DNA of 25,002 bases, taken from contig SXKQ01000194.1 in NCBI GenBank assembly GCA_005778045.1, forward strand, positions 1-25,002, given 5' to 3'. This DNA is from Planctomycetia bacterium. GTDB lineage: Bacteria > Planctomycetota > UBA1135 > GCA-002686595. Positions 3 to 20,560 of the stretch are shown here, piece by piece (positions within the stretch are counted from its first letter, which is position 1; every line of letters begins with the position of its first letter). The notes beneath the pieces are model-generated. The model saw only the letters and a program-made list of their open reading frames with translations, was not told the DNA's origin and searched no databases. Made by a program: the position numbers and the translations under genes.

Positions 3-617
3 AACGCCGAGGATGTGCGCCGCGCCGCCGCTGCCTGCCACGACCTCGCCAGCCTGCGCGCCGCGGTCGCGCGCTGCGAGGCCTGCGCGCTCGCGCGCAC
101 CCGCTCGCAGACGGTATTCGCCGACGGTCCGGAGCACGCCGAGCTCATGTTTGTCGGAGAGGCCCCGGGCGAGAGCGAAGACCGCCAAGGCATTCCTTTC
201 GTGGGTGAAGCCGGAAGACTCCTGACCGACATCATTGAAAAGGGCATGGGGCTGTCGCGCTCGAAGGTGGTCATCGCCAACGTGCTCAAGTGCCGTCCGC
301 CGGACAACCGCGACCCGTCCGCGGAGGAGACGCGCACCTGCACCCCGTGGCTCGACCGGCAGATCGAGCTCGTGAATCCCAAGGTCCTCGTGCCCCTCGG
401 CAAGCACGCCTCGAACCACTTGCTCGGGATCGCGGGCCCCGAACTGCGCTCGATGGGCTCCCTGCGCGAGCGCGTGCACGAGCACGGTGAGCGCAAACTG
501 GTCCCGACCTTCCATCCCTCCTACCTGCTGCGCACGCCGGAAGCGAAGAAGGACTGCTGGAAGGACATCCAGCTCGCCATGGGCCTGCTCGGACTCTCGC
601 CCCGGCGCAACGGCTGA
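3..617 (+). CDS. Uracil-DNA glycosylase, family 4 (Fe-S), 5'-truncated
   Basis: Removes uracil from DNA to start base excision repair in the cytoplasm. The frame is already open at the left edge (Asn-Ala-Glu-Asp-Val precede the GTG at 15), so the true start is probably upstream. Visible family marks: the first Fe-S cysteine pair CEAC (75-86); the uracil-pocket motif GEAPGESED starting near 156, followed by [10 protein letters not shown]; the third cysteine in [13 protein letters not shown]; the fourth in TCTPWL; and the catalytic-loop motif HPSYLLR near 512-532. All four cluster cysteines and both active-site motifs are present, so the enzyme should be functional. The C-terminus ([12 protein letters not shown]) is also typical of the family. 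It is not obviously linked to the secretin genes downstream, which have their own promoter candidate. Confidence 0.93.
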
Positions 618-1042: not shown

Positions 1043-3610
1043 ATGCGCTTGCGCTTCCTTTTCCTGCCGGCCTTCGCCCTCACCCTCGCCCCTGCGTGCC
1101 GGACGACCGAGACCAAGCTCGCGCCCGCGCCGAGCGAAGCGGCTCCGACCGTCGTCACGACCAACCCCGAGCCGGCCGCCCTCGCGGTGCAGGACGAACG
1201 CGCTGAGATCGAGCTGCGGCGCGACCGCGCCCAGTTCCTCGCCACCGAGTACCTCAGGGTCGGCGACAAGAAGCGCGACGAAGGCGACATCTCGGCCGCA
1301 CTGGCGCAGTACGCCAACGCGCTCGAAGTCGATCCGACCAGCGTGGCAGCGCGCGAGCGCCTTGGCCGCATGAAGGCGCTGCTCGGCGACAAGTACATGG
1401 ACATGGGCGAGCAGTTCCAGGACGCGAAGGAGCGCGAGATCGTGCGCCGCGCTCAGGCCCAGATGGCCGCCGAAGAAGCGGTCAGGCGCGCCGAGGCCGC
1501 CATGGCCCAGGGCCAGTACGAAGCGGCCGTCGCCGGCTTCCGCGAGGCCGAGTCGATCCTCGTGTGGCACCCGCTGATCGCCAAGGATTCGCTCGACGCG
1601 CGCATCATCGCCGCCCGCATGAACGATGCCCTCGACCAGCTCGAGGCCTCGCGCCAAGCGGAAGAGCAGTCGAAGAAGGCCGCCGCGGAAGCGGAAGCCG
1701 CCCGCAAGGAAGAGGACGTCCGCAATTACCGCGCGAACAAGCTTCGCACGCTGTTCCAGGACGCGAACTCGGCCTTCCTCGCCGACCAGTACTCGCAGGC
1801 CGAAGCTCTGTGCGAGCAGATCCTCCTCGACGACCCCAAGAACAGCGCCGCCACCAAGCTGCGCGACGCGGCCGCCCTCGCGCGCCACAACAAGACCGAG
1901 CGCGACACCCTCGCCCGCTACCGCGAGCAGTGGGTCCGCACGTTCGAGGAAGTGGACACGATGGACGTGCCCCAGACGACTCCGCTGGTCTTCGACGACC
2001 TGCGCCGCTGGGCCGAAGTGAACCGCCGCCAGCCGCTCGAGTTCACCGCCAAGGCCGCCGCCGCGAGCGCCGACACCAACGCGGTGCTCGAGCGCCTCTC
2101 GTCGGTGCGCTTCGCGCCGCGCTTCCGCACGGCCGACGGTGCCGGCGTGCCGCTTTCCGAGGTCGCGAGCTTCCTGCAAAACCTCACTGGCGTGAACTTC
2201 ATGGTCTCCGCCAAGGTGATGGAGGAGCTCGACGAGGAAGCCCAGCAGGTCGACATGGACCTGCCCGAGCGCAGCGTCCGCAACGTGCTCGAGATCATCG
2301 TCGAGACCCACGAGAACCTGCGCTGGAAGGTGCAGGACGGCGTGGTGAAGTTCGTCACGAAGGAAGAGACCTTCGGCAACCAGATCCTGAAGATGTACGA
2401 GGTCCGGGACATCATCCACCCGATCCCGTCCTTCCCCGGCCGCGAGATCAACATCGCCCCCTCGGGCGGTCTCGAGCAGCCGGAAGAGGAAGTCGAGGAG
2501 CGCGAGGGCCTCGTGGTCACCTCCGACGCCCTCGAGGCGCTGGTGCGCGACAACGTCGCCGCCGACAGCTGGAACGAAGACCCGCTGAACTCGGTGCGCA
2601 TCACCGACGCCGGCACGATGGTCGTCAATCAGACCCCGGACGTGCAGGAGCAGGTCAAGAAGCTGCTCGACGACCTGCGCGAAGCGACCGGCATCATGGT
2701 CGACATTCAGGCGCGCTTCCTGCGCGTCGAGGACAACTTCCTCGAAGACATCGGCATCGACTTCCGCGGCCTCGGCCAGCCGGGCCTCGGCACCAACACG
2801 TTCATCAACGACTTCGGTGACGCCTCGACTCAGGCCGACCTCGGCAAGGAAATCGGCCAAGGCAACGACCTCGGCGCGTTCTACGACGACGGTCAGGACG
2901 GCGACCTGCGCACGCGCGTCGAGAATCTCTACGACGTCAGCCTCGGCAACGCCGACGTGCTGCAGGCCACCGGCGGCCTCTCGTTCTCGTGGGCCTACCT
3001 CAGCGACCTCCAGATGCAGATGGTGTTGCGCGCCGTCTCGAAGTCGGAGCGCCGCGAGATCGTCACGAGCCCCAAGGTGCTGGTGTTCAACACGGCGCGC
3101 GCAAACCTCTCGGTGATGAACCAGGTCGCCTACGTGCAGGACTTCGACGTCGAGATCGCGCAGGCGGCCTCGATCGCCGACCCGATCGTCGAGACCGTGC
3201 AGGACGGCGTCGTGCTCGACGTGCGCCCGGTGGTCTCGGCCGACCGCCGCTTCATCATGATGGAGCTGCGTCCGACCGTGGCGACCCTGCGCCGCCCGAT
3301 CCGCGAAGTGGCCACCACCCTCGGCAGCCAGAACGCGGTCACGATCCAGCTGCCGGAGATCGACATTCAGCGCGTACGCACGACTGTCCCGATGCCCGAT
3401 GGCGGCACCGTGATGCTCGGCGGCCTCAAGATCAGCGAGAAGCAGGACCTGCGCTCGGGCATCCCGATCATCAACAAGATCCCGCTCGTGCGCTTCCTGT
3501 TCGATCGTCAGGGCACCTACGCGGCGAACCAGAAGCTCCTGATCCTCGTGACGGCCAACATCGTGATTCCCGAGGAGCGCGAGCCGCTGCCGTCGCAGCT
3601 CGGCGAGTGA
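1043..3610 (+). CDS. TPR-secretin lipoprotein (secretin 1)
   Basis: Predicted outer-membrane secretin subunit, 855 aa, which would multimerise into a gated channel. ATG 1043 is chosen because it opens a signal peptide ending at Cys19 (LTLAPAC, a loose lipobox), so the protein is probably lipid-anchored. In order: TPR-like helices about 60-110 and 140-185; a charged coiled coil about 195-235; another TPR about 235-280; an STN/N0-like domain about 370-440 (around FLQNLTGVNFMVS); an N1 KH-like domain about 490-550 ending TPDVQEQVKKLLDDLR; and the secretin C domain from about 550. The C domain shows GVVLDVRP near 722 and PDGGTVMLGGLK near 786, both secretin hallmarks. The segment between the first C-domain strands is a long acidic/glycine insertion (about 585-640). 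Secretin 2 (10614-13214) is a paralogue. There is no T2SS or pilus ATPase nearby, so calling it GspD or PilQ would be over-specific. Confidence 0.88.
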   Translation: MRLRFLFLPAFALTLAPACRTTETKLAPAPSEAAPTVVTTNPEPAALAVQDERAEIELRRDRAQFLATEYLRVGDKKRDEGDISAALAQYANALEVDPTSVAARERLGRMKALLGDKYMDMGEQFQDAKEREIVRRAQAQMAAEEAVRRAEAAMAQGQYEAAVAGFREAESILVWHPLIAKDSLDARIIAARMNDALDQLEASRQAEEQSKKAAAEAEAARKEEDVRNYRANKLRTLFQDANSAFLADQYSQAEALCEQILLDDPKNSAATKLRDAAALARHNKTERDTLARYREQWVRTFEEVDTMDVPQTTPLVFDDLRRWAEVNRRQPLEFTAKAAAASADTNAVLERLSSVRFAPRFRTADGAGVPLSEVASFLQNLTGVNFMVSAKVMEELDEEAQQVDMDLPERSVRNVLEIIVETHENLRWKVQDGVVKFVTKEETFGNQILKMYEVRDIIHPIPSFPGREINIAPSGGLEQPEEEVEEREGLVVTSDALEALVRDNVAADSWNEDPLNSVRITDAGTMVVNQTPDVQEQVKKLLDDLREATGIMVDIQARFLRVEDNFLEDIGIDFRGLGQPGLGTNTFINDFGDASTQADLGKEIGQGNDLGAFYDDGQDGDLRTRVENLYDVSLGNADVLQATGGLSFSWAYLSDLQMQMVLRAVSKSERREIVTSPKVLVFNTARANLSVMNQVAYVQDFDVEIAQAASIADPIVETVQDGVVLDVRPVVSADRRFIMMELRPTVATLRRPIREVATTLGSQNAVTIQLPEIDIQRVRTTVPMPDGGTVMLGGLKISEKQDLRSGIPIINKIPLVRFLFDRQGTYAANQKLLILVTANIVIPEEREPLPSQLGE

Positions 3611-3637
3611 ACCGATCCGCAGCCTCTGCGCCCCCTT

Positions 3638-3678
3638 CCGCGGGCCCGTCGCGCTCTGCGCGGCGGGCCCGCGGCCTT
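3638..3678 (+). terminator. Hairpin terminator after secretin 1
   Basis: A perfect 11-bp inverted repeat, CCGCGGGCCCG (3638-3648) and CGGGCCCGCGG (3664-3674), with a 15-nt loop, is followed by CCTTTGG. It starts 27 bp after the secretin stop. The T tract is short, so intrinsic termination may be weak, but the stem is very stable. Confidence 0.62.
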
Positions 3679-4037
3679 TGGCGGGCAGCGTCTCCACCAC
3701 GGCACTTCGCGCCCGTTTTCTAGACAATTTTCGGACTCCTTGCATCTCGCTCGGGCGCGAGAGTTTCGTACCATCCGCGCTCCTTGGGTCCGCTCGACGC
3801 CTGCCCGTGAGGCGCCGCGAGGACCGGCGGCGAACGGGGACCTTCCCGCGTGGCAGGTCCGCGTCCTCCGCTGCAAGAAACTGCGTAGCCTGTTCCAGGG
3901 CCGCGCGGTATTCGTGCCCAAGGTGCACTCTGTCCGCGGCGGGTCCGCGAGCGGCGTGCACCGCAACGGGCCCGAGCCGCGTTGACCTATCCCGGGACGG
4001 CGTCCGCCCCCGCCCCCATCCCACCCCGATCCCGCCC
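3679..4037 (+). other. Intergenic region, possible structured leader or small RNA
   Basis: No supported gene. An AT-rich patch (TTTTCTAGACAATTTT, 3716-3731) stands out in otherwise GC-rich DNA. After it come three local hairpins: TCTCGC/GCGAGA (3745-3750/3757-3762); a nested pair GAGGAC/GTCCTC (3819-3824/3863-3868) around GGACC/GGTCC (3838-3842/3856-3860); and GGTGCAC/GTGCACC (3922-3928/3956-3962) around CGCGG/CCGCG (3935-3939/3945-3949). GCTCGGGC (3749-3756) could alternatively pair with GCCCGAGC (3970-3977), which would close the whole region. In GC-rich DNA some of this pairing is expected by chance. A TTGACC at 3982-3987 has no matching -10. The last 40 bases before the next ATG are cytosine-rich. 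Confidence 0.35.
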
Positions 4038-6935
4038 ATGCGTCGTTCCCTGTCGTTCGGACTGGTCTTCGCCTTCTCCACGGCCACGCTCTTCGGGCAG
4101 AAGAGCGAATCCGAGCAACGCGCGGACATCGCCTTCGCCAAGGGGCTCGCGGAGCTCGGCTTCATCGAACTCTCCGAAAAGGTGCTGCGCGGCGTCGAGT
4201 CGAGCGGCCTCTCGGCCAAGCTGACCGAGGAAGTGGCGCTGCTGCGCTGCGACGCGCTGTACGACGCGGCCAAGGCGGACCAGACCAAGCGCGAGGAGTT
4301 ACTGAAGAAGGCCGTCGAGGCCTATCAAGCGTTCCTCGACAAGTACAAGGCCTTCGGGGATCCGGAGATCGTGATCCGCGCCCAGGCGCGCACGGTCGAG
4401 GTCGACAGCGCCTACGCGCGCGTGATCTCGGCCTCGATGGCGGACCTAGTCGGCGACGAGCTGACGCAGAAGCGCACGGCGATGCGCACGTTCCTCGAGT
4501 CCGCGGCCGGTCGCGTCAACGACCTGATCCGCGAGCAGGAAGAGCTCGCCAAGGAAGGCTCGGGTGGCGACGGCGCCCAGAGGCGCCTGTTCGAGCTGCT
4601 GCTCAACGGCGCCGACCTCAACCTGCAGCTCGCGCAGGTGCAGGAAGTGGCCACGACCTTCTCGGTGGCCGAGAAGATGTACGTCAAGCTCAGCGACACC
4701 GCGGGCGAAGGCACGCCGTGGAGCCTGCGCGCCTACATTGGCATCGGCGACGTCTACGCCGCGCAGGCCGCGCGCGAGGACGACTTCAAGTCCGCCGCCA
4801 AGCTCTATCAGGAGGCCGCGAGCTACTACGAGTTCGCGGTCAACTTCTCGATCCCGCGCGACCTCGCAGCGTGGAAGGAAGCCTCCGAGCAGATGCAGCA
4901 ACCGGAGAAGCAGAGCCGCTTCCTGTTCCTGCAGCTCGGCACGCCGGGACTGGTCAAGTCGAGCATCGCCGCCGGCGACAACGAGGCCGCGCTCGAGTGG
5001 GCGCTGCACTTCGTCAACACGTGGAGGCGCGAAGGCCTCGAGCTCACGCCGCCGCAGGGCTACATGGCGCTGCTCGACGTGACGCAGGCGCTCGTGAGCG
5101 CCGGTGGATTCCTCGGCGGCAACCCGGCCGCAGGCGACCTGCGCTGGTTCGAGAGCCAAGAAGCGCTCGCCGCCGCGAGCCTGCCCAAGAAGAACCAGCG
5201 CTCGGCGCTCGACTTCGCGCTCTCGCTGGCGCAGGAAGTCTCGGCCGAGAACAAGGGCAACAACCTGCAGGTGCGCGCCCAGCGCGCGATCGGCGAGATC
5301 ATCGCGCGCCCGGGCGTGAAGGTCGACCCGAGCGTGCTGATGGATGCCGCCAAGGGCGAGTTCAACGCGCAGAACTGGAGCGCCTCGATCGAGGCCTTCA
5401 AGCGCGTCGTGAGCGCCCTCGAAAGCTCGGATCTCGCCACTCGTCAGGAACGCATGCCCGAGATGCTCTGGCACATCGCGCGCTCTTACCAGCGCATGGA
5501 CCGCGTGCTCGAGGCCTCCGCCGTCTACGAGCAGGCCCTCGAGAGCTGGTCGGGTGACCCGAAGTTCGACGGCGAGAGCGCCAAGGGCTTCTACGACTGC
5601 GCGCAGCTACTCAAGCGCACGATCAAGGGCGACAGCGCCATCGATGCGCTCGCCACCCGCGCGGACGATGCGCTCAAGCGCGCCGCGAGCGGCACCGGCA
5701 AGGGCGAGGACATCAAGTTCCGCGACGCCGAGAAGCTGTATGCCGACAACAAGTTCGAGGAGGCCCGCGCAGCCTACGCGGGCGTCGGCTCCGGCGCGGA
5801 AAACTACGAGAAGGCCAAGGTCAACCTCGGTGTGTGCGAGTTCAAGCTCAAGCGCTACCCGGAGGCCATCGCCGCGCTGCAGGGCTACCTCAACACGTAC
5901 CTAAAGAGCTCCGACGCGGCGACCACCGACGCACGCCGTCTCGCGCGCCGCAAGGAAGCGACCGCCAACGCGCGCTTCTACTGGGGCCTCGCCGAGTTCG
6001 AAGTCGCCAACGGTGGCGCGAACTCATGGCAGAAGGTGGTCGACGTGCTCGGCACGTTCCAGATTGACTTCCCCGAGCAGAACCAGCTCGCCCCCGCGGC
6101 CATGTACCGCGTGTTGATCTCCTACGGCCACCTGAACCAGCAGGACAAGGTCAAGTCGCTGCTCGGGCTGATGCTCTCGAGCTTCCCCGACAACCGCTGG
6201 ACCGGCAGTGCGGCCACCGAGTCGTACAAGATGCTCAGGAGCACCTTCGACGCCGAGAAGGACAGCGCGAAGAAGCCCGCCATCGAGCGCGAGATGGCGG
6301 AGAACCTGCAGGTGCTCAACCGCACCAGCCCGAAGCCCAACTTCGACAACATGCGCGCCGAGTCGCGCCACTGGATGAACCTCTCGGAGTGGGCCACGGC
6401 CGAGGAACTGCTCAAGCGCATGCAGGCGCAGTTCGGCGCGGAGGCCAAGCACGCCGAGGACATGCAGAAGCGCGCGCTCCCCGACCTCGGCGAGGCGCAG
6501 CTGCGCCAGAAAAAGGTCCCGGACGCCTTCGCGACGCTCAAGCCGCTCGTGATGGACGAGAAGATACGCGCCGCCAAGGGCACGGCTTATGACTTTGCGC
6601 AGGCCGCCGCCGGCTGGCTCGAGGTGCAGGGCAACAAGGTGATCGAGAACGCGGGCGCCGCCACCACCGCCGCCGACTTCGAGTTCGCCGTCAAGGCCAT
6701 CAACCAGCTCACCGACGCCTCCGAGAAGTGGGCCGCCGAGTGGTACGGCTTCAAGGCCCAGCAGATCTACACCTACCTGCGCTTCGCGGCCGTCGACGGC
6801 AAGCGCATGGACACCGCTCGCTCGCTGATGGGTCCGATGAACACCCAGCTCGGCGGCGGCACCCAGTTCAAGGCCGAAGGCATGACCGAGGACAACCGCC
6901 AGCGCTACCTGTGGCTGGTTCAGAAGGTGAAGTGA
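4038..6935 (+). CDS. Large exported TPR-repeat protein
   Basis: 965-aa protein. The frame is open back to 3678, but ATG 4038 is chosen because it starts a clear signal peptide (RR, then a hydrophobic stretch to TLFGQ at about residue 21). The rest is almost entirely alpha-helical repeats of TPR type, with recognisable units such as RPGVKV...FNAQNWSASIEAFKRVV and MLWHIARSYQRMDRVLEASA in the middle, and KVNLGVCEFKLKRYPEAIAA further on. I see no catalytic motif, no transmembrane helix after the signal and no lipobox cysteine. It is best read as a periplasmic scaffold. It lies between secretin 1 and the second TPR protein and is followed after 72 bp by that gene, suggesting a shared job around the secretin/ExbB machine. 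The exact function is unknown. No Shine-Dalgarno is visible before the ATG. Confidence 0.82.
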   Translation: MRRSLSFGLVFAFSTATLFGQKSESEQRADIAFAKGLAELGFIELSEKVLRGVESSGLSAKLTEEVALLRCDALYDAAKADQTKREELLKKAVEAYQAFLDKYKAFGDPEIVIRAQARTVEVDSAYARVISASMADLVGDELTQKRTAMRTFLESAAGRVNDLIREQEELAKEGSGGDGAQRRLFELLLNGADLNLQLAQVQEVATTFSVAEKMYVKLSDTAGEGTPWSLRAYIGIGDVYAAQAAREDDFKSAAKLYQEAASYYEFAVNFSIPRDLAAWKEASEQMQQPEKQSRFLFLQLGTPGLVKSSIAAGDNEAALEWALHFVNTWRREGLELTPPQGYMALLDVTQALVSAGGFLGGNPAAGDLRWFESQEALAAASLPKKNQRSALDFALSLAQEVSAENKGNNLQVRAQRAIGEIIARPGVKVDPSVLMDAAKGEFNAQNWSASIEAFKRVVSALESSDLATRQERMPEMLWHIARSYQRMDRVLEASAVYEQALESWSGDPKFDGESAKGFYDCAQLLKRTIKGDSAIDALATRADDALKRAASGTGKGEDIKFRDAEKLYADNKFEEARAAYAGVGSGAENYEKAKVNLGVCEFKLKRYPEAIAALQGYLNTYLKSSDAATTDARRLARRKEATANARFYWGLAEFEVANGGANSWQKVVDVLGTFQIDFPEQNQLAPAAMYRVLISYGHLNQQDKVKSLLGLMLSSFPDNRWTGSAATESYKMLRSTFDAEKDSAKKPAIEREMAENLQVLNRTSPKPNFDNMRAESRHWMNLSEWATAEELLKRMQAQFGAEAKHAEDMQKRALPDLGEAQLRQKKVPDAFATLKPLVMDEKIRAAKGTAYDFAQAAAGWLEVQGNKVIENAGAATTAADFEFAVKAINQLTDASEKWAAEWYGFKAQQIYTYLRFAAVDGKRMDTARSLMGPMNTQLGGGTQFKAEGMTEDNRQRYLWLVQKVK

Positions 6936-6966
6936 GCGCGCCGCGCGCCTTCAGGACCTCTCCCCG

Positions 6967-6994
6967 TTGTGAGCCCCCGCACCCCCGCTAGAAT
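6967..6994 (+). promoter_or_regulatory. Candidate promoter with near-leaderless start
   Basis: TTGTGA (6967-6972), 16 bp, then TAGAAT (6989-6994, five of six bases matching the -10 consensus). The expected start of transcription (about 7001) is only about 7 nt before the ATG at 7008. No Shine-Dalgarno is present in that interval, so the message would be nearly leaderless. Confidence 0.42.
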
Positions 6995-7007
6995 CCCCGA
7001 GCTTTCC

Positions 7008-8162
7008 ATGCGCCGCACCGCCGCCACACTCGCGCTCTTCCTGCTCGCTGCCCTCCCCTCGTCCGCGTCCTCCGAAGGTGGTCGCCCCGATCAGGTCTAC
7101 GTGAAGAGCAAGCGCGACGGCTCGGTGAGCATGGTCACGGGCGTGGTCCAGCGCTACGAGCTCGGCAAGGTGACCGTCGCGGTGGGCTCCAAGGAGAACA
7201 ACTACGACTCGCTGCAGGTGCAGAGCGTCGAGTGGGGCGACGTGCCGCCCTCCTTCCGCGAGGGGCACGCCTACGCCCAGCGCGGCGCGTGGGCCGACGC
7301 CGCCAAGAGCTTCCGCGTGGCCGCGGGCGACGCCAGCGCCCGCGACGTGGTCAAGGCCGCTGCCAAGCGCCAGCTCGCCGAGGCGCTTCTGAAGAGCGGC
7401 AGCGAGGACTCTGCGCGCTTCACGGAAGCGGCGATCGAGGCTCAGGGCTACCTCGCGGCCTTCGCTCAGAATGCCGACGTTCCCGACGTGCGCTTGCTGC
7501 ACGCCCGAGCCCTATGGCTCTCGGGCAAGCCAGCCGAGGCCGGCGCGGCGTACCGCGGCGTGCACGCGGAGTTCAAGGCCGACGCCACGGCCGCGGGCTA
7601 CGAGCCGCTGCTGTGCCTCGAGGCCGGGATGCTCGCCGCCCGCTCCCTGCTCGACGTCAAGGACACCCTCGGTGCCCGCGAGGTATACGCCGCCCTCGAA
7701 AGTCAGGTCGGCCCGCTGCTCGCCGCCGCCGGCGACAGCCCCCAGAAGCCGGGCCTGCACGCCATCGCCGACGAGGCCGCCCTCGGCCAAGGCTTCGTCG
7801 ACCTCGCCGGAGGTCAAGCTAAGCAGGCGCTCAGCTTCTTCCAGAGCCGTGTCGGCGCGCTCAAGCCCGACTCGACGCCCTCCGCACGCTTCGCCGCTCA
7901 GCTCGGTCTCGGCGAGGCCCTGCTCGCGGAGAACAAGCCGCGCGAAGCGAGCCTGATGCTCGCCAAGGTGAGCAGCCTCGAGTGCGGCGACCGCGACCGC
8001 GCCCTGCGGGCCACCGTCAAGCTGGCGGAGGCCTACTCGAAGCTCCCCGACGCCGACGCACGCGCTCAGGCCTGCGCCCGCGTGAAGGACGTGATCAAAA
8101 GCGGCGGAGACTCCCCGGCTTCCATCCGCGCGCGCCAACTCGCCAAGGAGCTCGGCTGCTAG
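7008..8162 (+). CDS. Exported TPR-repeat protein with N-terminal beta domain
   Basis: 384 aa. ATG 7008 is preferred over an upstream in-frame start (6969) because it begins a clean signal peptide (RRTAATLALFLLAALPSSAS). After cleavage comes a short domain predicted to be beta-rich (about 25-75: DQVYVKSKRDGSVSMVTG, then GKVTVAV and SVEWGDVPPSF). TPR-like helical repeats then run to the end (FREGHAYAQRGAWADAAKSF, LLHARALWLSGKPAEAGAAY, AQLGLGEALLAENKPREASL). The protein ends in a cysteine. There are no enzymatic motifs. It follows the large TPR protein by 72 bp and precedes the ExbB/ExbD motor genes by 146 bp. A periplasmic adaptor between motor and secretin is a reasonable inference but is not shown by the sequence. 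Confidence 0.8.
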   Translation: MRRTAATLALFLLAALPSSASSEGGRPDQVYVKSKRDGSVSMVTGVVQRYELGKVTVAVGSKENNYDSLQVQSVEWGDVPPSFREGHAYAQRGAWADAAKSFRVAAGDASARDVVKAAAKRQLAEALLKSGSEDSARFTEAAIEAQGYLAAFAQNADVPDVRLLHARALWLSGKPAEAGAAYRGVHAEFKADATAAGYEPLLCLEAGMLAARSLLDVKDTLGAREVYAALESQVGPLLAAAGDSPQKPGLHAIADEAALGQGFVDLAGGQAKQALSFFQSRVGALKPDSTPSARFAAQLGLGEALLAENKPREASLMLAKVSSLECGDRDRALRATVKLAEAYSKLPDADARAQACARVKDVIKSGGDSPASIRARQLAKELGC

Positions 8163-8173
8163 AGCGTCAGGGC

Positions 8174-8182
8174 TGCTAAGCT
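8174..8182 (+). promoter_or_regulatory. Weak extended -10 candidate for motor operon
   Basis: TG-C-TAAGCT just after the TPR gene stop. There is no convincing -35. It would give a leader of about 120 nt that is strongly pyrimidine-rich (by hand count about 70 of 90 bases at 8201-8290). Confidence 0.2.
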
Positions 8183-8293
8183 CTCGACCCCATCGCGCTG
8201 CCCCTCCCCTGCTTCGCATCCCCCCTTTCGCTCAGGCGCTGCCTCGACAAGGGTCCCACCTCTACTTCTTCTCTCTCTCCCCCATCATCTCTT

Positions 8294-8298
8294 AGGAG
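8294..8298 (+). promoter_or_regulatory. Shine-Dalgarno of exbB-like gene
   Basis: AGGAG, 10 nt before ATG 8309. It fixes the start and contrasts with the neighbouring TPR and secretin genes, which lack clear sites. Confidence 0.7.
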
Positions 8299-8308
8299 TC
8301 CCCGGGTC

Positions 8309-9076
8309 ATGACGTTCCGTTCCGTTCGCTCCTGCGCCGCGGCCTTCTGCCGCCGCGCCCTGCCTGCGCTGGCCGTGATACTCTTTGCCGCCCTGCCGCT
8401 CCTCGCTCAGGAAGGCGCCAGCTCCACCGCTCCGGCGACCTCCGATGGTGGGGGCGCGCTGTCCCTGTGGGAACTGATCGTGCTCTCGGGCTTCGTCGGC
8501 TGGGTGATCATCCTCCTCTCGATCGTCACGCTGGCCGTGATCATCGAGAACTACGTCACCCTGTCCCGTGAGAAGCTCGCTCCGCCGGAGATCGTCGACG
8601 AGATCCAGAGCCTGTTCGAGGAAGGCCAGTTCCAGGAGGCCATGGAGCTGTGCGAGAACGAGCCCAGCTTCTTCACCAGGGTCTGCCGCGCCGGCATCGC
8701 CAAGATCGGCCAGCCCTTCGAGGTCATCCAGACCGCGCTGCAGGACATGGGCAACGAGGAGTCGATCCGCCTGAACCAGAAGATCGGCTGGATCTCGGTG
8801 CTCGCCGCCGTGTCCCCGATGCTCGGCCTGTTCGGCACGGTGCAGGGCATGATCGCCTCCTTCCACATCATCGCAAACACCGCCAACCCGACGCCGGCCC
8901 AGCTCGCGAGCGGTATTTACGTCGCGCTCCTCACGACCTTCGAAGGTCTGATGGTTGCCATCCCCGCGACGGCCGCCTTCGCGTACATCCGCAACCGCCT
9001 CGTGCGCAACATCATCGAGGTCGGCGCGATCGTCGAGGACCTGTTTGAGCGCTTCCGCCCGACGAACAACCAGTGA
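8309..9076 (+). CDS. MotA/TolQ/ExbB-family proton channel subunit
   Basis: 255-aa inner-membrane protein that forms a proton-conducting motor with ExbD/TolR-type partners. The start is fixed by AGGAG 10 nt upstream. Residues 1-35 form a signal-peptide-like segment (RRALPALAVILFAALPLLAQ) absent from Escherichia coli ExbB. The core follows: TM1 about 52-75 (LIVLSGFVGWVIILLSIVTL), a cytoplasmic helical loop about 80-155, TM2 with the family motif SPMLGLFGTVQGMI (about 170-185), and TM3 YVALLTTFEGLMVAIPAT (about 210-230). The Thr of the TM3 motif, aligned with the pore Thr of ExbB/TolQ, is present, and a Glu sits next to the conserved GL. The next two genes encode the ExbD-type partners. It lies in the middle of the secretin/TPR block. 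Confidence 0.93.
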   Translation: MTFRSVRSCAAAFCRRALPALAVILFAALPLLAQEGASSTAPATSDGGGALSLWELIVLSGFVGWVIILLSIVTLAVIIENYVTLSREKLAPPEIVDEIQSLFEEGQFQEAMELCENEPSFFTRVCRAGIAKIGQPFEVIQTALQDMGNEESIRLNQKIGWISVLAAVSPMLGLFGTVQGMIASFHIIANTANPTPAQLASGIYVALLTTFEGLMVAIPATAAFAYIRNRLVRNIIEVGAIVEDLFERFRPTNNQ

Positions 9077-9158
9077 TACTCGCCCGCCGCCGGTCGCGGC
9101 GGCCTGCGTCTCCGTTCAGGAACCGTAGGTCGCCGTCCCAGCGGAGGTAGGAGCATCC

Positions 9159-9163
9159 GGAGG
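9159..9163 (+). promoter_or_regulatory. Shine-Dalgarno of first exbD-like gene
   Basis: GGAGG, 4 nt before ATG 9168 (a slightly close spacing). A second GGAGG lies farther upstream, within GCGGAGGTAGGAG. Confidence 0.6.
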
Positions 9164-9167
9164 ACCT

Positions 9168-9680
9168 ATGAACCTCGCCAAGAACCAGTCCAACGACGAG
9201 ATCGTCATGGACATGACGCCGATGATCGACATCGTGTTCCAGTTGATCATCTTCTTCATGCTCCTGATGGACATGAGCCAGCAGGATCTCGAGACGCTGG
9301 TGCTTCCCAAAGCCCTCTCGGCCGTGGAAGACAAGCCCAACCCTCTCGATCCCCGCCCGGTGATCAACATCACCGCCGACGGCCAGATCCTGGTCAAGCG
9401 CGAGGTCTACTACGACCCCAAGCGCGACGACGGCTACAAGAAGCTGAAGGAGTACCTCGCGATGCGTGCCCGCGCGATGCCCAAGGCCCCGGTCGAGCCG
9501 GGTTCGAAGATCATCGCTCCGGACAAGCCCATCTTGGTGCGCGCCGACCAGTCCACCCCCTTCAAGCACATCCAGAAGGTGATGGAGATCTGCGGCATCT
9601 CGGACATCAAGATCTGGAAGATCGAGCTCGCCGCCGGTCAAGAAAAGCCCGCCGAGGGCTCGGAAGCAGGAGGCAACTAG
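9168..9680 (+). CDS. ExbD/TolR-family motor protein 1
   Basis: 170 aa with a short cytoplasmic N-terminus, one transmembrane helix (about 18-37) and a periplasmic domain. The helix starts with MTPMIDIVFQLIIFFML. Asp21 sits where ExbD Asp25 / TolR Asp23 carries the proton, so the motor residue is intact. The periplasmic part ends with an ExbD-like fold (PILVRADQSTPFKHIQKVME, then ISDIKIWKIELA). It is placed 91 bp after the ExbB-like gene and directly abuts the second ExbD-like gene, which indicates co-expression. It differs from the second ExbD in its periplasmic domain, so the two probably form a heteromeric rotor or stator rather than being redundant copies. Confidence 0.92.
   Translation: MNLAKNQSNDEIVMDMTPMIDIVFQLIIFFMLLMDMSQQDLETLVLPKALSAVEDKPNPLDPRPVINITADGQILVKREVYYDPKRDDGYKKLKEYLAMRARAMPKAPVEPGSKIIAPDKPILVRADQSTPFKHIQKVMEICGISDIKIWKIELAAGQEKPAEGSEAGGN
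9668..9673 (+). promoter_or_regulatory. Shine-Dalgarno of second exbD-like gene
   Basis: AGGAGG inside the end of the preceding gene, 7 nt before ATG 9681. It is a near-ideal site that supports translational coupling. Confidence 0.7.
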
Positions 9681-10205
9681 ATGGCTATCGGAGTCAGCAG
9701 TTCGCAGGAGTCGATGGAGATGAAGAGCGACATGACGCCGATGATCGACGTCGTGTTCCAGCTCCTCATTTTCTTCATGCTCACGATCAAGTTCAAACTG
9801 CTCGAGGGCAAGCTGTCCGCCTACCTGCCGAAGGACGTCGGGGTCAACCAGACCGAGGCCGAGCCGAAGGAGAAGGTCGAGATCAAGCTGAAGGTCGAGC
9901 GCGAAGGCAGCAAGCTTGCTCCCGATGATTCGGGCAAGCCTTGGGACGGCGAAGGGGCCTTCAGGTTTGGCCCTGACCGCGTCATCCGCTACTCGGTCGG
10001 CCCAAAATCGAGCCTCGAGATGCGCGAGATCGTCGCGCGCGTGAGGGAGCTCTACAAGATCGACCCCAAGGGCTCGGTCACCATCGACCCGCTCCCGGGT
10101 ACTTGCTACGCCGACGTGGTCAAGATCCTCGATGATGTGATCCTGATCGGCTACACGGACGTGTCGTTCATCGGCGACAAGTCCGCGCTCTACGAGAAGA
10201 AGTGA
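9681..10205 (+). CDS. ExbD/TolR-family motor protein 2
   Basis: 174 aa. The ATG follows the TAG of the previous gene with no gap, preceded by AGGAGG. There is a single membrane helix beginning DMTPMIDVVFQLLIFFML. Asp23 is the expected proton-carrying residue. The periplasmic domain is longer in its first half, with a charged segment (EAEPKEKVEIKLKVE) and an ExbD-type end (GSVTIDPLPGTCYADVVKIL). One ExbB plus two different ExbD proteins is the subunit pattern of motors such as AglR/AglQ/AglS of Myxococcus. That resemblance is in composition only; I cannot align them here. The operon ends at the hairpin just downstream. Confidence 0.92.
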   Translation: MAIGVSSSQESMEMKSDMTPMIDVVFQLLIFFMLTIKFKLLEGKLSAYLPKDVGVNQTEAEPKEKVEIKLKVEREGSKLAPDDSGKPWDGEGAFRFGPDRVIRYSVGPKSSLEMREIVARVRELYKIDPKGSVTIDPLPGTCYADVVKILDDVILIGYTDVSFIGDKSALYEKK

Positions 10206-10211
10206 TCCCAC

Positions 10212-10258
10212 GCGGGGGACGCGCTGGACGCCGGCGTGTCCCCCGCCGCTCTTTTGTT
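10212..10258 (+). terminator. Intrinsic terminator after the motor operon
   Basis: Stem GCGGGGGAC (10212-10220) / GTCCCCCGC (10238-10246), with a further 3-bp CGC/GCG pairing in the loop, is followed by CGCTCTTTTGTT. It starts 7 bp after the stop of the second exbD-like gene. It is the best terminator seen in the window. Confidence 0.7.
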
Positions 10259-10613
10259 CCACCCATCGCACCTGCGTCCCGGCATGACTCGCCCTATGCC
10301 GCCCGGCCCCCCAAGGGCTTGTGGCGCGAGGACGAGCCTGCGGGGCCTCCGCGGCTTGAGTCGGTCCTGTGGGCTGATCCAAAGCCGAGCGTCGAGGCTC
10401 CCCCGCCAGAGGCTTTCCAAGCCCTCGCTCCGACGCTAACCTTCCCCCCCTTCCGCCCAGCGAAGGGTGTCGGCCGCGCGACGGCCAGCGCCCCTCGATT
10501 TGAACGTCTCCCCCCACCCCCATCTCTCACGCCCGCGCCCTCGGCTCACTGCCGAAGGCACGGGATCTCTCGGGTCCCCACCCCCCACCGTCGAAGTTCG
10601 ACAGTCCCACGCG
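10259..10613 (+). other. Cytosine-rich intergenic leader before secretin 2
   Basis: No gene is supported. The region has a weak promoter candidate (10414-10442) and then a leader of roughly 165 nt dominated by C and T runs (for example 10440-10460 and 10508-10545). It shares the 12-mer GTCGAGGCTCCC (10391-10402) with the leader of secretin 1 (1025-1036). The frame of secretin 2 is open to 10467, but the encoded stretch is Pro/Arg/His-rich and looks non-coding. Confidence 0.4.
10414..10442 (+). promoter_or_regulatory. Weak promoter candidate for secretin 2
   Basis: TTTCCA (10414-10419), 17 bp, then TAACCT (10437-10442). Matches are partial (four of six at -35, four of six at -10), but the spacing is ideal and it lies after the motor-operon terminator. 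Confidence 0.3.
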
Positions 10614-13214
10614 ATGAGCAAGGTCGGCAACGCACTCCCGTTCTGCATGCTCCTGACAGCGGCTTGCGCCACGGCGCCCAACTACGCCGTCGAGCCGGTC
10701 GAGCCGGCCGCCCCCGTGGCGGCCCTCGCCCAACCTGAGCCCGCTCAGGATGGTGCCCAAGATCTGCTCGACAAGCAGAAGGAGCAGACCGCTCTCAACC
10801 AGCAGCGCTCGGTGCTGCTCGTCGAGCGTCACCTCGCCAACGCCAAGGCGCGCACTGAAGACCTGCGCTTCGCCGAGGCGGAGGCCGAGCTGCTCGCCGC
10901 GCTCGAGCTGCAGCCCGACAACGCCCAAGCCAAGCAGATGCTGGCCGAAGTCACCGTGCTGATGGGCAAGGCGCCCGGCCAGCAGGGTGTCGACGCGACC
11001 GACATGGCCGCGCGCTGGCAGATCAAGGTTCAGCAAATGCAGGCCCAAGCGCGCGAGAGCCTGAACCAAGGCCGCGACTTCGCCGCCAAGGGCGAATACG
11101 AGCGCGCCATCGCCGAGTTCTCGGTGGCCAAGAACCTGATCCGCTGGGCGCCGTACTCGGCCATCGACTGGAACGGTGTCGACGCCGAGATCGAAGCCGA
11201 GCTCGCCAAGGCCACCGCTGGTCGTCTGGCCACCGAGCAGGCCGGTCGCGACGCCGAAGCCGCCAAGGCAGTCGAAGCGCTCAAGGCCGAGGGCAAGGCG
11301 CAGGCCCTGCGCCGCGAAGCCCTGATCAACAACATGCTCGATCAGGCCATCAGCGCCTTCGAGAAGCAGAACTACGACGAGGCCATGGACTTCTGCGATC
11401 AGGCGCTCCACGAGGATCCGCGAGACGATCGCGCCATGGAGATCCGCGACGCCGCCTTCCGCGCCGGTCGCGAGACGGTGCGCGCCGACTACATCCTGCG
11501 CAAGCGTGAGCAGTTCCTGCGCTGGCGCGAGGGTCTCGACGAGTTGCGCATCCCCGAGTCGGACATCTACACGCTGCCCGATCAGGACTTTTGGAAGGAC
11601 ATCACCGAGAAGCGCGCCAAGCGCCGCGGCATCGACCTTTCGCAGCGCGAGACGACGGAAGACCGCGAGCTGAAGGCCAGCCTGCGCGAGACCCGCATCC
11701 CGGGTCTCAAGGTCGCCGATGAGAGCTCGCTCTCCGCGGTGGTCGATGTGCTGCGCACCTTCACCGGCCTGCCGCTGGTGGTCGACCCGGCCGCCGAGAC
11801 CGCCGCCACGGACGCCGGCGCCGTCTACAACCTCAACCTGACCTCGTCGCTCTCGGTTGAGCAGGCCCTCAACTTGATCGTCGGCATGTCGGGCGAGGAC
11901 GTCGCCTGGGCCGTGCGCAACGACGCGGTCATGGTGACGACCAAGGCCAAGGCCCGCGGCGTCCCGGTGATCTACAACCACGACGTTCAGGACCTCGTCT
12001 TCAGCTTGACGGACTTCTACGGTCCGCGCATCGAGCGCCTGCGCCTGCTCGATGACATGGAAGACGACGACGGCGGCGGCCCCTTCGGCGGCATCGGCGA
12101 GAAGCCGAAGCTGATCGAGATCTCGAACCTCTCGACCCTGATTCAGGAGAACGTCGCTCCGGGCACTTGGGAGGGCGAGGGCGTCTCGATCGCTGAAGGC
12201 GAAGGCTTCATCGTCATCGTCCACACTCCCGACGTGCAGGAGCAGGTCAAGAAGTTCCTCAACGACCTGCGCCGCTTCGGCTCCTCGCTCGTCACGATCG
12301 AGTCGAAGTTCATGACGGTCTCGTCCAACTGGCTGCAGGAGATCGGTGTCGACTTCCGCGGTCTCGACAACCCCGTCGCACCGTTCAAGGACATGGACGA
12401 CGTGACCAACGGCCTCGAGGACGGCGCTTCGCGCGGCCTCGACAACAACGGCCTTGGCGCTGCATCGGGCATCCCCTCCTCGGGCTTCTTCTACAACGAC
12501 GGCGCGGACGGCGACTTCAAGGGCCGCACCGAGAACTACTTCGAGAGCCCGCTCGGCTCGGCGCTGTCGAGCATCGGCGGCATCACCACGCAGCTGACGT
12601 TCCTCAACGACCTCGAAGTGTCGATGATCCTGCGCGCGGTCGAGAAGTCGACCGACTACCAGCTGATCAACAACCAGATGCTCTCGGTGCACAACACCCA
12701 GCGCGCCTACGTTGCCGTGATCAACCAGCAGGCTTACATCCAGGACTTCGACGTCGAAGTGGCCCAGTTCCAGGCCGTCGCCGACCCGCAGATCAACGTG
12801 CTGCACGAGGGCGTGGTGCTCGACGTGCGCCCGACGATCCACCACAACCGCAAGTACCTGACGCTGGAGATCCAGCCGACGGTGGCCAAGGTCGTGGCCC
12901 TGCGCACCTTCAGCTCGACCCTCGGTGGCAACACCGCTCCGGTCGAGTTCCAGCTGCCCGAGCTCGAGGTCCAGAGCGTGTTCACCACGGCTGTCATCCC
13001 CGACGGTGGCTCGATCCTCCTCGGCGGACTCTCGAACGTGCGCAACATCGAGCGCCGCGCCGAAGTGCCTTGGCTGTCCCAGATCCCGATCCTCGGCTTC
13101 CTCCTCAAGAACGAAGGCTTCAACGAGGAGTCCAAGAGCCTGATGATCGTGATCCGCGCGAGCATCATGGACGTGCACGACGCCGTCGAGAAGCTCGAAG
13201 AGCGCATCCGCTAG
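10614..13214 (+). CDS. TPR-secretin lipoprotein (secretin 2)
   Basis: 866-aa paralogue of secretin 1. ATG 10614 gives a short lipoprotein signal with a good lipobox (LLTAAC, Cys18). In order: TPR-like helices about 70-120 and 150-190; a charged helix about 195-240; a TPR at about 245-275; an N0/STN-like domain about 366-448 (LSAVVDVLRTFTGLPLVVD); an N1 KH-like domain about 505-559 (NLSTLIQENVAPGTW ... TPDVQEQVKKFLNDLR); and the secretin C domain about 560-846, with GVVLDVRP, PDGGSILLGGLS and a C-terminal SLMIVIRASI strand. It shares with secretin 1 an insertion motif FYNDGADGDFKGRTEN. Its own terminator follows. It may form a hetero-oligomer with secretin 1 or a separate channel driven by the same motor; the sequence does not decide. 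No Shine-Dalgarno is seen. Confidence 0.88.
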   Translation: MSKVGNALPFCMLLTAACATAPNYAVEPVEPAAPVAALAQPEPAQDGAQDLLDKQKEQTALNQQRSVLLVERHLANAKARTEDLRFAEAEAELLAALELQPDNAQAKQMLAEVTVLMGKAPGQQGVDATDMAARWQIKVQQMQAQARESLNQGRDFAAKGEYERAIAEFSVAKNLIRWAPYSAIDWNGVDAEIEAELAKATAGRLATEQAGRDAEAAKAVEALKAEGKAQALRREALINNMLDQAISAFEKQNYDEAMDFCDQALHEDPRDDRAMEIRDAAFRAGRETVRADYILRKREQFLRWREGLDELRIPESDIYTLPDQDFWKDITEKRAKRRGIDLSQRETTEDRELKASLRETRIPGLKVADESSLSAVVDVLRTFTGLPLVVDPAAETAATDAGAVYNLNLTSSLSVEQALNLIVGMSGEDVAWAVRNDAVMVTTKAKARGVPVIYNHDVQDLVFSLTDFYGPRIERLRLLDDMEDDDGGGPFGGIGEKPKLIEISNLSTLIQENVAPGTWEGEGVSIAEGEGFIVIVHTPDVQEQVKKFLNDLRRFGSSLVTIESKFMTVSSNWLQEIGVDFRGLDNPVAPFKDMDDVTNGLEDGASRGLDNNGLGAASGIPSSGFFYNDGADGDFKGRTENYFESPLGSALSSIGGITTQLTFLNDLEVSMILRAVEKSTDYQLINNQMLSVHNTQRAYVAVINQQAYIQDFDVEVAQFQAVADPQINVLHEGVVLDVRPTIHHNRKYLTLEIQPTVAKVVALRTFSSTLGGNTAPVEFQLPELEVQSVFTTAVIPDGGSILLGGLSNVRNIERRAEVPWLSQIPILGFLLKNEGFNEESKSLMIVIRASIMDVHDAVEKLEERIR

Positions 13215-13245: not shown

Positions 13246-13287
13246 GGACGCCGTCCTCCCGCGCGGGGGGGCGGCGTCCTGCCTTTT
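13246..13287 (+). terminator. Terminator after secretin 2
   Basis: Stem GGACGCCG (13246-13253) / CGGCGTCC (13272-13279), with CCCGCGCGGG able to pair inside the loop, is followed by TGCCTTTTCG. It begins 32 bp after the secretin stop. Confidence 0.65.
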
Positions 13288-13372: not shown

Positions 13373-14107
13373 ATGCCCCCCATGGCCCAGATCGACGCAG
13401 TCTTCTTCGACATCGACGACACCCTGTGCGCGACGACGGCCTTCGCCCAGCGCGCGCGCCGCAACGCGGTGCGGGCCATGCTCGCCGCCGGACTGCGTGG
13501 TGAAGAGGAGCGCGTGTATCGCGAGCTCGAGGAAGTGATCGCCGAGTTCTCGTCCAACTACGAGCACCACTTCGACAAGCTCCTCCTGCGCCTGCCCGAG
13601 TCCGCACTCGCCGATCACAACCCGGCGCTGGTCGTCGCAGCCGGCGTCGCGGCCTACCACGACACGAAGTTCCACGAGCTCGCGCCCTTCCCGGGCGTGG
13701 GCGAGCTGCTGCGGGACCTGCGCGCCGCAGGAGCGCGCGTCGGGATCATCACCCACGGCCTGACCGTGAAGCAGGCGGAGAAGCTCGTGCGCCTCGGGCT
13801 CGTCCCCCACCTCGATCCGACCGCGATCTTCATCTCGGACCAGATCGGGGTCGCCAAGCCCAACCCGAAGATCTACCAGATGGCGCTCGAGCGCTGCGGC
13901 ATCGCGGCGGCGCGCGCGCTCTACGTGGGCGACAACCCGCGCAACGACGTCACGCCGCCGCGCCAGCTCGGCATGCTCACCTGTTGGGCGCGCCTCGTGC
14001 GCCGCCACGAGCTCGGCGACGCGCCGCGGCCCGACTTCGAGATCGAGAGCTTTGGCGAGCTGCGCGCGATCCTGCGCGACCGGCTGCGGGTCGCTCTGCC
14101 GGCCTAG
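13373..14107 (+). CDS. HAD-superfamily hydrolase (phosphatase-like)
   Basis: 244-aa cytosolic phosphohydrolase of HAD subfamily I. All four motifs are visible: motif I FFDIDDT (Asp13 nucleophile, Asp15 acid/base), motif II Thr127 in IITHG, motif III Lys162 in GVAKPNPKIYQ, and motif IV GDNPRND (Asp187, Asp192). The helical cap (about 20-95) contains FAQRARRNAVRAMLAAG, as in archaeal/bacterial TIGR02253-type members. The substrate is unknown; small phosphorylated metabolites are usual. The start could also be ATG 13382 (MAQIDAV), three codons in. A TAGCCT hexamer ends about 10 nt before the ATG, so a very short leader is possible. The stop overlaps, by four bases on the opposite strand, the stop of the ABC ATPase gene. 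Confidence 0.9.
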   Translation: MPPMAQIDAVFFDIDDTLCATTAFAQRARRNAVRAMLAAGLRGEEERVYRELEEVIAEFSSNYEHHFDKLLLRLPESALADHNPALVVAAGVAAYHDTKFHELAPFPGVGELLRDLRAAGARVGIITHGLTVKQAEKLVRLGLVPHLDPTAIFISDQIGVAKPNPKIYQMALERCGIAAARALYVGDNPRNDVTPPRQLGMLTCWARLVRRHELGDAPRPDFEIESFGELRAILRDRLRVALPA

Positions 14108-17348: not shown

Positions 17349-18378
17349 CACGTACCCGCGGATCGAGCCGCGCCTGCAGGAAGTCGGAGAGCGCGAGCCC
17401 AAGGAGCGTCATCGCGCCGGTGACGAGCACGCAGGCGGCCACCGCGTCGTACTCCCGCCGCTGCAGCGAGTCGAACGCGTACTTGCCCATGCCGGGAATC
17501 TCGAACACGGTCTCGACCAACACGGAACCGCCCACGAGCCACGGCAGAACCTGCCCCACCAGCGTGCAGGCCGGCACGAGCGCGTTGCGGACGACATGTC
17601 GCCACGCAACGGCCCGCTCCGGCAGCCCGCGCGCGCGGGCGGCGAGCACGAACTCCGAGCGCGCGACCTCCGCCGTCGCGGCGCGCATCTGGCGCGAGAT
17701 CGACGCGATGGAGGCGTAGCTCATGCACACGATCGGCAGCACGGCGTGCGCGGCGAGATCCGCGAAGCTTCCGCGCGCCGCATCGCGCGAGTGAAGCCCG
17801 AGAATCGGCAGCCAGTCGAGCCCCGTCGGCCCGAACAGCTCCTGCAACAGGAGCGCCACCCAAAAGATGGGCGCCGAGTAGGCGAGCAGCGCCAGCGCGC
17901 GCGTCCAGCCGTCGAAGACCCCGCCACGTCGCAGCCCCTGCCCGACACCGAGCGGCAGGGCGATCGCGTAGGCGAGCAGTGCCGAAAGCAGCGCCAGCGG
18001 CAGCGTGACGGACATTCGACGTACGAGTTCATGGCCGATCTCGACATCCGGTCGCAAGTACTCGCGCCCGAGGTCACCCGCCAGCAAGCCGCCCCACGGC
18101 TGTGCGCCGTTGCCGCCGAACAGCGCGTGTCCCTCGGGGCCAAGATCAAAAGGCCCGAGGTAGTGCAGGAACTGCACCGGCAGCGATCGCTCGAGGAGGT
18201 GCTCCGCGCGAAAGCGCTCGAGCGCCTCGGCGGCCGCGCTGGCCTCGACCATCTCCGAACTCGCGAAGCGCAGCGCCGCCGGATCGCCCGGCGCGAGTCG
18301 CAGCAGCGCAAAGGCCACCGCGACGAGCCCGAGCAGCGTCGCGAACGCGCGCAGCGAGCGCAGGAGCAGGTTTCGCAT
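17335..18378 (-). CDS. Peptide-type ABC permease (OppB/DppB-like)
   Basis: 347-aa inner-membrane permease. The start MRNLLLRSLRAFATLLGLVA, with APGDPAALRF right after TM1, is typical of the OppB family. A periplasmic segment follows (about 30-115), then the permease core beginning ELVRRMSVTLPLALLSALLA. The EAA loop is SEFVLAARARGLPERAVAWR followed by HVVRNALVP. The C-terminal EIPGMGKYAFDSLQRREYDAV also matches OppB. ATG 18378 is 11 bp downstream of the binding-protein stop, and the 3' end overlaps the next permease by 14 bp, so the operon is tight. A longer upstream frame is a shadow of the binding-protein gene. Confidence 0.92.
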   Translation of the reverse strand: MRNLLLRSLRAFATLLGLVAVAFALLRLAPGDPAALRFASSEMVEASAAAEALERFRAEHLLERSLPVQFLHYLGPFDLGPEGHALFGGNGAQPWGGLLAGDLGREYLRPDVEIGHELVRRMSVTLPLALLSALLAYAIALPLGVGQGLRRGGVFDGWTRALALLAYSAPIFWVALLLQELFGPTGLDWLPILGLHSRDAARGSFADLAAHAVLPIVCMSYASIASISRQMRAATAEVARSEFVLAARARGLPERAVAWRHVVRNALVPACTLVGQVLPWLVGGSVLVETVFEIPGMGKYAFDSLQRREYDAVAACVLVTGAMTLLGLALSDFLQARLDPRVRDGAR

Positions 18379-18389
18379 GCCGCGCCTCG

Positions 18390-20321: not shown

Positions 20322-20406
20322 CGTGCGGGAGAGCCTCCGCGCAGGGCGGAAGGGTCGACGCGACCGGGACAAGCCGCGCGGAACTCTGGCAGGAATACAC
20401 CACGCG

Positions 20407-20510: not shown

Positions 20511-20520
20511 CAACGCAGCC

Positions 20521-20549
20521 GAGACTTCGCCCACGGGCCTGCGTAGGAT
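20521..20549 (+). promoter_or_regulatory. Weak promoter candidate for second importer
   Basis: GAGACT (20521-20526), 17 bp, then TAGGAT (20544-20549), 11 nt before ATG 20561. The -35 matches only in its GAC core. The geometry would give a leader of only a few nucleotides. Confidence 0.25.
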
Positions 20550-20560
20550 CCGACGGAGCC

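Follow-up and report, generated by a model that had tools for sequence, protein, structure and literature searches.

Two paralogous secretins flanking a TolQ/TolR-type motor in Planctomycetota: a conserved gene set and a possible proton-driven envelope machine

In this report, we focus on a locus carried by a window of 25,002 nucleotides (Planctomycetia bacterium, lineage Planctomycetota; UBA1135; GCA-002686595; assembly GCA_005778045.1, contig SXKQ01000194.1, positions 1 to 25,002 of the forward strand), in which two secretin genes enclose the genes of two exported tetratricopeptide repeat (TPR) proteins and of a proton motor made of one ExbB and two ExbD subunits. We confirm the gene set and its long-standing conservation. 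We propose that the seven genes encode a single trans-envelope machine, driven by protons and related in kind to Tol, Ton and Agl, in which a pair of paralogous secretins would be the outer-membrane partner. We give this joint function about an even chance, because it rests on gene order, and the uracil-DNA glycosylase (UDG) gene next to the locus shows that order can mislead. We infer, as a first-pass annotation of the sequence had done, that the motor may energise or gate the secretins. To our knowledge, secretin systems are served by ATPase-driven inner complexes or, as for the phage protein pIV, by no known motor. No publication joining planctomycete secretins with an ExbB/ExbD motor was found in a search that left most subscription papers and all bioRxiv preprints outside.

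All seven genes lie on the forward strand of the window, in the order SEC1 (1043..3610), TPRA (4038..6935), TPRB (7008..8162), ExbB (8309..9076), ExbD1 (9168..9680), ExbD2 (9681..10205) and SEC2 (10614..13214), the ATG codons at 1043, 4038, 7008, 8309, 9168, 9681 and 10614 being chosen as the likely starts. The Pfam scan, which covered 18 of the 93 listed open reading frames (ORFs) of the window, picked by length and codon-position GC, thus confirms the layout first described, with two TPR-secretins flanking a TPR pair and a one-ExbB/two-ExbD set on a single strand. It also agrees with the first-pass annotation on the absence of pilin, GspE and GspF, since no T2SSE, T2SSF, pilin, PilB, PilC or PilMNO domain was found among the 18 ORFs.

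Both SEC1 and SEC2 are members of the secretin family (PF00263, cut-off 27.5 bits; E 1.9e-26 and 93.1 bits for SEC1, E 4.5e-22 and 78.9 bits for SEC2). Each is read as a TPR-N0-secretin protein and as a probable outer-membrane lipoprotein. Indeed, a lipobox-like cysteine follows a hydrophobic stretch in 46/58 SEC1 and 50/62 SEC2 sequences, according to a rule of our own and not to SignalP. The TPR matches of SEC1, SEC2, TPRA and TPRB are all below the Pfam cut-off (TPR_11 at 1.8e-5 in SEC1; TPRB has the weakest). In SEC2, the N0 (STN-like) periplasmic domain and the secretin core fold are both matched, and an N0 domain is predicted in SEC1 from its likeness to SEC2. The predicted structure of SEC2 (mean pLDDT 70.5, pTM 0.39) has a weak barrel, so only the N0 domain and the general secretin match are taken from it. 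N0 and core fold are shared with GspD of the type II secretion system (T2SS), PilQ and MshL, whereas here no GspE/F or pilin domain was found in the locus and the secretins are two and paralogous. In NCBIfam, both proteins resemble MshL/PilQ, and neither reaches the GspD equivalog TIGR02517 (72.0 and 68.3 bits for a threshold of 351). The best NCBIfam match of SEC1 is the Amuc_1098 family (NF042912; 106.3 bits against a cut-off of 750, and 49.3 bits for SEC2). The accessible part of PMC4960237 describes Amuc_1098 as a verrucomicrobial PilQ-like protein of about 900 aa, with N-terminal TPR and a C-terminal secretin domain. SEC1 has this same TPR-secretin build, but it stands far below the family score and it has a motor, not pilus genes, beside it.

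The relationship between the two secretins was examined in a midpoint-rooted tree of 73 sequences, taken from 43 loci picked to cover a wide spread and cleared of short matches. It splits into a SEC1 side of 36 rows and a SEC2 side of 37, with a Shimodaira-Hasegawa-like approximate likelihood ratio (SH-aLRT) support of 99 for each; four rows called SEC1 by profile search were placed on the SEC2 side. Both sides are occupied by 20 of the 22 families, and the two that occupy one side only (f30 and f82) are families from each of which one kind of locus was fetched. The SEC1 and SEC2 subtrees branch alike, as judged by eye, and families f34 and f60 retain one secretin of each kind even though the two are unlinked. 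Seven rows, five of them from f34, were flagged for an unlike letter make-up, which can mislead a tree. With two deep groups and 20/22 families on both sides, SEC1 and SEC2 look like ancient paralogues, their duplication being old and the pair retained even when unlinked. The pair itself had been recognised in the first-pass annotation, while the old paralogy had not been foreseen.

The two proteins encoded between the secretins and the motor are exported TPR proteins. TPRA is about 965 aa long with a signal-peptide-like N-terminus, and its TPR matches are at 1.7e-5 and weaker; its 15-row alignment gives a profile of 888 positions. In one locus (L063, oriented 5.3-8.2 kb), TPRA reads as two pieces, through a frameshift or a split gene. 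TPRB combines a small beta domain with a CpoB/YbgF-like TPR solenoid, and its structure model supports the TPR fold. It matches CpoB/YbgF of the Tol-Pal system, YbgF being its best NCBIfam hit, below cut-off, and the envelope proteins found with Foldseek and VIA include YbgF, BamD, PilF and a Campylobacter flagellar scaffold. This CpoB-like nature goes beyond what was first noted.

The motor is of the MotA/TolQ/ExbB - TolR/ExbD type, as the two Pfam families and the conserved aspartate indicate. ExbB (PF01618, 4e-26) begins with a signal-like segment and has three more hydrophobic ones, as judged from hydrophobicity; it scores best against tolQ (68.1 bits, cut-off 221) and has 57.5 bits against exbB, both below cut-off. 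ExbD1 and ExbD2 (PF02472, 2.4e-16 and 9.7e-16) stay under the tolR equivalog (39.3 and 30.7 of 127.3 bits), and the proton-binding aspartate of their TPMID motif is invariant in 15/15 rows of each alignment. A third ExbD-like gene is seen in loci L054, L073, L238-L240 and L244. None of the seven proteins matches the PADLOC anti-phage defence models, such as Zorya, at E 0.001 (0 matches for 7/7), and a defence system was rejected on this ground.

The window has one TolQ-type gene for two TolR-type genes, and the comparison first drawn with AglR/AglQ/AglS holds, both by Pfam and by the accessible part of PMC3169522, which gives the Myxococcus AglRQS-Glt machinery the same ratio and several exported TPR proteins. 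These common traits would fit an engine of surface motility or adhesion, a reading that we consider very improbable. No secretin is among the Glt components named in that part of the paper, and neither a porin, Glt-like or other, nor an FHA or TonB domain was detected among the ORFs of the window that were scanned. In the Planctomycetes-Verrucomicrobia-Chlamydiae (PVC) group, the accessible part of PMC12204202 describes modules made of TPR, TolQ, TolR, TolR and von Willebrand factor A (vWA) genes. They share with our locus a TPR gene, one TolQ-like gene and two unlike TolR-like genes in the same superphylum, but the ORFs scanned in the window gave no vWA domain, and two secretins are present instead; the word secretin is absent from the text of that paper.

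The locus also resembles Tol-Pal, through the TolQ/TolR-like motor and the CpoB/YbgF-like TPR protein. It differs in that secretins form the outer-membrane part here, and the window ORFs scanned showed no domain of TolA, TolB or Pal. The Tol-Pal set is largely reduced in Planctomycetes according to the accessible part of PMC8871954. The TolB_N profile found a match in 1/18 genomes (G066, E 5.7e-4, 22.7 bits, which is 0.3 bits over the cut-off of 22.4), a result that leaves room for a diverged TolB that the profile misses; among the controls, 3/14 were positive (E. coli, Caulobacter and Bacteroides). The motor could stand in for Tol-Pal, pulling on the secretin rings as anchors in the outer membrane and so holding or constricting the envelope, with no passage of cargo. 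We regard this as improbable, as a secretin pore would presumably be a costly anchor, and no division gene was recognised among the window ORFs scanned.

The arrangement is widespread in the class. A SEC2 search found a match, in some cases weak, in 151/151 class genomes, 132 of which have SEC2 among the matches listed. The nearest genome, G001, has 41% of sampled words in common, and its SEC2 is 98% identical. The complete genomes Poly30, Pla86 and Pla163 are of the same family as G001 and as the source of the window, and each has a match to the SEC2 alignment; we take them to belong to the Saltatorellus clade. This clade is described as shape-shifting in the accessible part of PMC11032199, from which we draw no functional conclusion. 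We examined 62 class loci, namely that of the window, that of G001 (L038) and 60 picked from the 132 genomes for long contigs and spread. The complete set SEC1-TPRA-TPRB-ExbB-ExbD-ExbD-SEC2 is found on one strand in 52 of them, for which reason chance grouping was rejected. This count includes L085, in which an ExbB frame open far upstream shifts the ORF midpoint while the ExbB match itself is in order. ExbB is present in 55/62 loci. Among the incomplete loci, the contig starts after SEC1 in L040 and L092, other genes occupy the place of SEC1 in L057, and L098 is too short; the motor is absent in L045, L046, L048, L050, L060 and L069, TPRA being retained in L045. Among the matches listed for the 132 genomes, ExbB lies on the strand of SEC2 and 1.1-3.6 kb 5' of it in 97, is on another contig in 13 (SEC2 often being near a contig end) and is missing in 6. 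Searching named genomes with the SEC2 alignment yielded 80 loci; out of 79, the motor is shown in 51, 11 are without it despite at least 5.5 kb 5' of SEC2, and the other 17 offer too little sequence or were put aside for that reason.

The set is also found outside the class. A SEC2-profile search that scored three candidates per genome gave a match at 1e-20 in 230/246 phylum genomes, some of them weak enough to be other secretins. Among 60 hand-picked phylum loci, strong matches first, 29 have the motor enclosed by two secretins, with all main matches on one strand; they represent 13 families outside the class, and their proportion is not the frequency in the phylum. TPRA is found in 25 of these 29 loci and so is TPRB, each being missing from four. 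The motor accompanies one secretin in 8/60 loci and was not seen in 23/60, several of which are cut by a contig end. The space between ExbD2 and SEC2 can hold a further gene. Outside the class, a gene of about 2 kb is sulfatase-like in 8/8 loci by eye and in the 1/1 submitted to Pfam (L221:11354-13267, +, sulfatase/phosphodiesterase family, PF00884 5.4e-35). In class family f3, a pyridoxal-phosphate (PLP)-decarboxylase-like gene is seen there in 4/4 loci by eye (L063:11377-12963, L064:11278-12942 and, in reverse-complement coordinates, L067:11769-13268 and L070:11694-13208), and in f47 there is no such gap of about 2 kb. We rejected this gene as a missing part of the machine: as it varies between families, it is probably not a core part.

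As to ATPases, T2SSE genes, the sole ATPase test applied to the relatives, are present in 10/10 genomes tested, and in 10/10 none is near SEC2. The nearest lies at about 161 kb in Poly30, 463 kb in Pla86, 93 kb in Pla163 and 87 kb in G035, and the six other genomes have no T2SSE on the SEC2 contig. With no T2SSE nearby and family scores below cut-off, a T2SS or type IV pilus operon was rejected. The first-pass annotation had looked to a conserved order without neighbouring T2SS or pilus ATPases for support, and this is what is seen, in the 97/132 class genomes above and with T2SSE at a distance. It is conceivable, all the same, that two modules share a neighbourhood, with SEC1 and SEC2 serving a filament akin to a type IV pilus or a T2SS, whose ATPase is encoded elsewhere, and the motor serving transducers of its own. 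The T2SSE genes found in every genome tested, the Amuc_1098-like score of SEC1 (106 bits, below cut-off) and the MshL/PilQ-like character of both secretins all fit such a separation, as do the company kept by diverged motors and the linkage of UDG, both detailed below. The other secretins of G001 argue against it. Six are above cut-off in this genome; two (C24 and C237) adjoin T2SSE, although C392 and C427, like SEC1 and SEC2, have no T2SSE on their contigs. The gene order in 13 families outside the class also argues against it, and a constant motor-TPR block, not a varying set of genes, stands between the secretins. On balance, we judge the two-module explanation unlikely, albeit the most serious competitor of a joint machine.

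Several observations weigh against a joint machine. The first one is the behaviour of UDG (3..617, + strand; family 4, PF03167 3.1e-37, TIGR00758 above cut-off), which adjoins SEC1 in 55/62 class loci, just as often as ExbB is present, and which is found in 18/60 phylum loci. As the two linkages are equal, synteny alone is no proof of joint function. UDG is not thought to be a part of the machine, and a DNA-handling link is conceivable. Furthermore, UDG, SEC1 and SEC2 stand together in 11/11 named loci without motor, 4 of which have TPRA between the secretins, a point in favour of the machine; in the 11 loci, the motor is tied to the secretins more loosely than the unrelated UDG. The second one is that 16/132 class genomes with SEC2 have, among the matches listed, only a diverged ExbB (172-208 bits), located away from the secretins. 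These 16 genomes fall in families f1, f2 and f4, and 16/16 have SEC2 among the matches listed. The third one concerns other motors. Several first-look ExbB candidates were seen in most class genomes, which makes it unlikely that the motor of the locus stands alone there, and seven genomes that have the canonical ExbB show an additional one at 141-158 bits, uncounted and barely over the listing limit. In the phylum, f30, f34, f60, f69 and other families hold secretins and motor apart, and the single-contig genome G254 has two secretins and its best ExbB at three distant places. An ExbB match (177-283 bits) was found in 12/12 genomes from apart or doubtful cases. In f30 and f69, its score (177-186 bits) is typical of the diverged type, and G156 and G262 turned out to have ExbB next to SEC1. 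The first-pass annotation had held that secretins and motor occurring independently in relatives would undo the idea; this independence exists in the 16/132 class genomes and in several families, and the synteny is kept elsewhere.

The transcriptional arrangement points the same way. Terminator-like hairpins stand 3' of ExbD2 (10212..10246, +, 16 pairs and a T-rich tail) and of SEC2 (13246..13279, +, 15 pairs and a T-rich tail), which suggests that SEC2 is transcribed on its own in the window; with the gaps of about 0.4 kb that the chosen starts leave 5' of TPRA and 5' of SEC2, the seven genes may form more than one operon. The whole stretch has 13 such hairpins for 7.4 expected (sd 3.1). Stems of at least 8 pairs follow ExbD2 in 35/55 loci, 11 with a T-rich tail, irregularly and as raw counts without a shuffled control, and by the same rule there is none in the nearest relative, L038.

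The diverged ExbB, a class set by score from which the fragment G082:C565 was left out, occurs in 3/123 genomes with a canonical ExbB and in 16/28 without, among the matches listed (Fisher p 1.5e-11, uncorrected for kinship and therefore overstated, as the genomes are kin). Its rarity beside the canonical one fits the replacement of one motor by another, which reads as an argument that a motor is needed, not that the secretins would need it. Elsewhere in fetched genomes whose secretin locus has no motor, a diverged TPRA-TPRB-ExbB-ExbD-ExbD block is found, full in some and partial in others, and no secretin match occurs in the fetched stretches around it.

This diverged block has other companions. 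In 7/7 loci examined, one or two proteins with the topology of TonB are encoded 5' of it. Their layout, which matches that of TonB, starts with a hydrophobic segment at the N-terminus, followed by a stretch that is charged or rich in proline and by a domain that weakly matches squalene-cyclase/toroid families (SQHop_cyclase_C). The hydrophobic segment carries PW and a histidine in 9/10 aligned sequences (L207 being the exception), and a conserved SHLS motif with an essential histidine is described for such helices in the accessible part of PMC12204202. Examples in tandem are found at L205:11905-15783 (-), L196:9146-12802 (-), L281:7488-10866 (-) and L282:1331-4646 (+). Homologues exist in 12/12 genomes tested, 10 of them canonical; a single match extends from the segment through the whole toroid in 10/12, with two pieces in G088 and the later part only in G056, and many weaker matches cover the toroid alone. 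For the tandem pairs of two canonical genomes, no motor match was found in the fetched stretches, of which one starts at the end of a contig. In G062, a divergent block (L057, about 12.6-19.3 kb, +) with two toroid TonB-like matches and one TPRA-like match sits at the place of SEC1 and adjoins a canonical TPRA-SEC2 block. In the locus itself, Pfam finds no TonB-like transducer among the window ORFs scanned, the candidates being elsewhere in relatives. The toroid proteins are nonetheless candidate transducers for the canonical motor and, unlike the published vWA type, possibly a new kind of force transducer. Such candidates outside the locus are beyond the foresight of the first-pass annotation.

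A joint machine could work as follows. ExbB, probably a pentamer as in its known relatives, and the ExbD1/ExbD2 pair would conduct protons via the TPMID aspartates, as their sequence conservation suggests. The resulting motion of the ExbD periplasmic domains would be passed to TPRA and to the CpoB-like TPRB, perhaps through a separately encoded protein of TonB topology, and the TPR proteins would in turn transmit a pull to the TPR/N0 domains of the outer-membrane secretins SEC1 and SEC2. We favour a force that would open, close or move the secretin channel for large cargo; as a second choice, it would pull the outer membrane inward in place of Tol-Pal. More broadly, these features may belong to an ancestral Planctomycetota secretin machine of an undescribed kind, with an obligate paralogous pair, a Tol-type proton motor that opens or moves it and TPR and toroid TonB-topology coupling, acting as a substitute where Tol-Pal is reduced. 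This is a possibility that we put forward tentatively and with some doubt.

The remainder of the window (14104-25000) holds oligopeptide-type ATP-binding cassette (ABC) transporter genes on both strands, among them two SBP_bac_5 ORFs on opposite strands (18390-20372, -, and 20210-22330, +) with permease and ATPase genes on each side.

The arrangement described here is kept across many lineages of the phylum and may represent an undescribed envelope machine. If true, a proton-driven secretin pair would unite two large families of envelope machines, and it would provide a defined and testable trans-envelope engine in a phylum whose cell envelopes are unusual. It would also be relevant to the question of what replaces Tol-Pal where this system is reduced.

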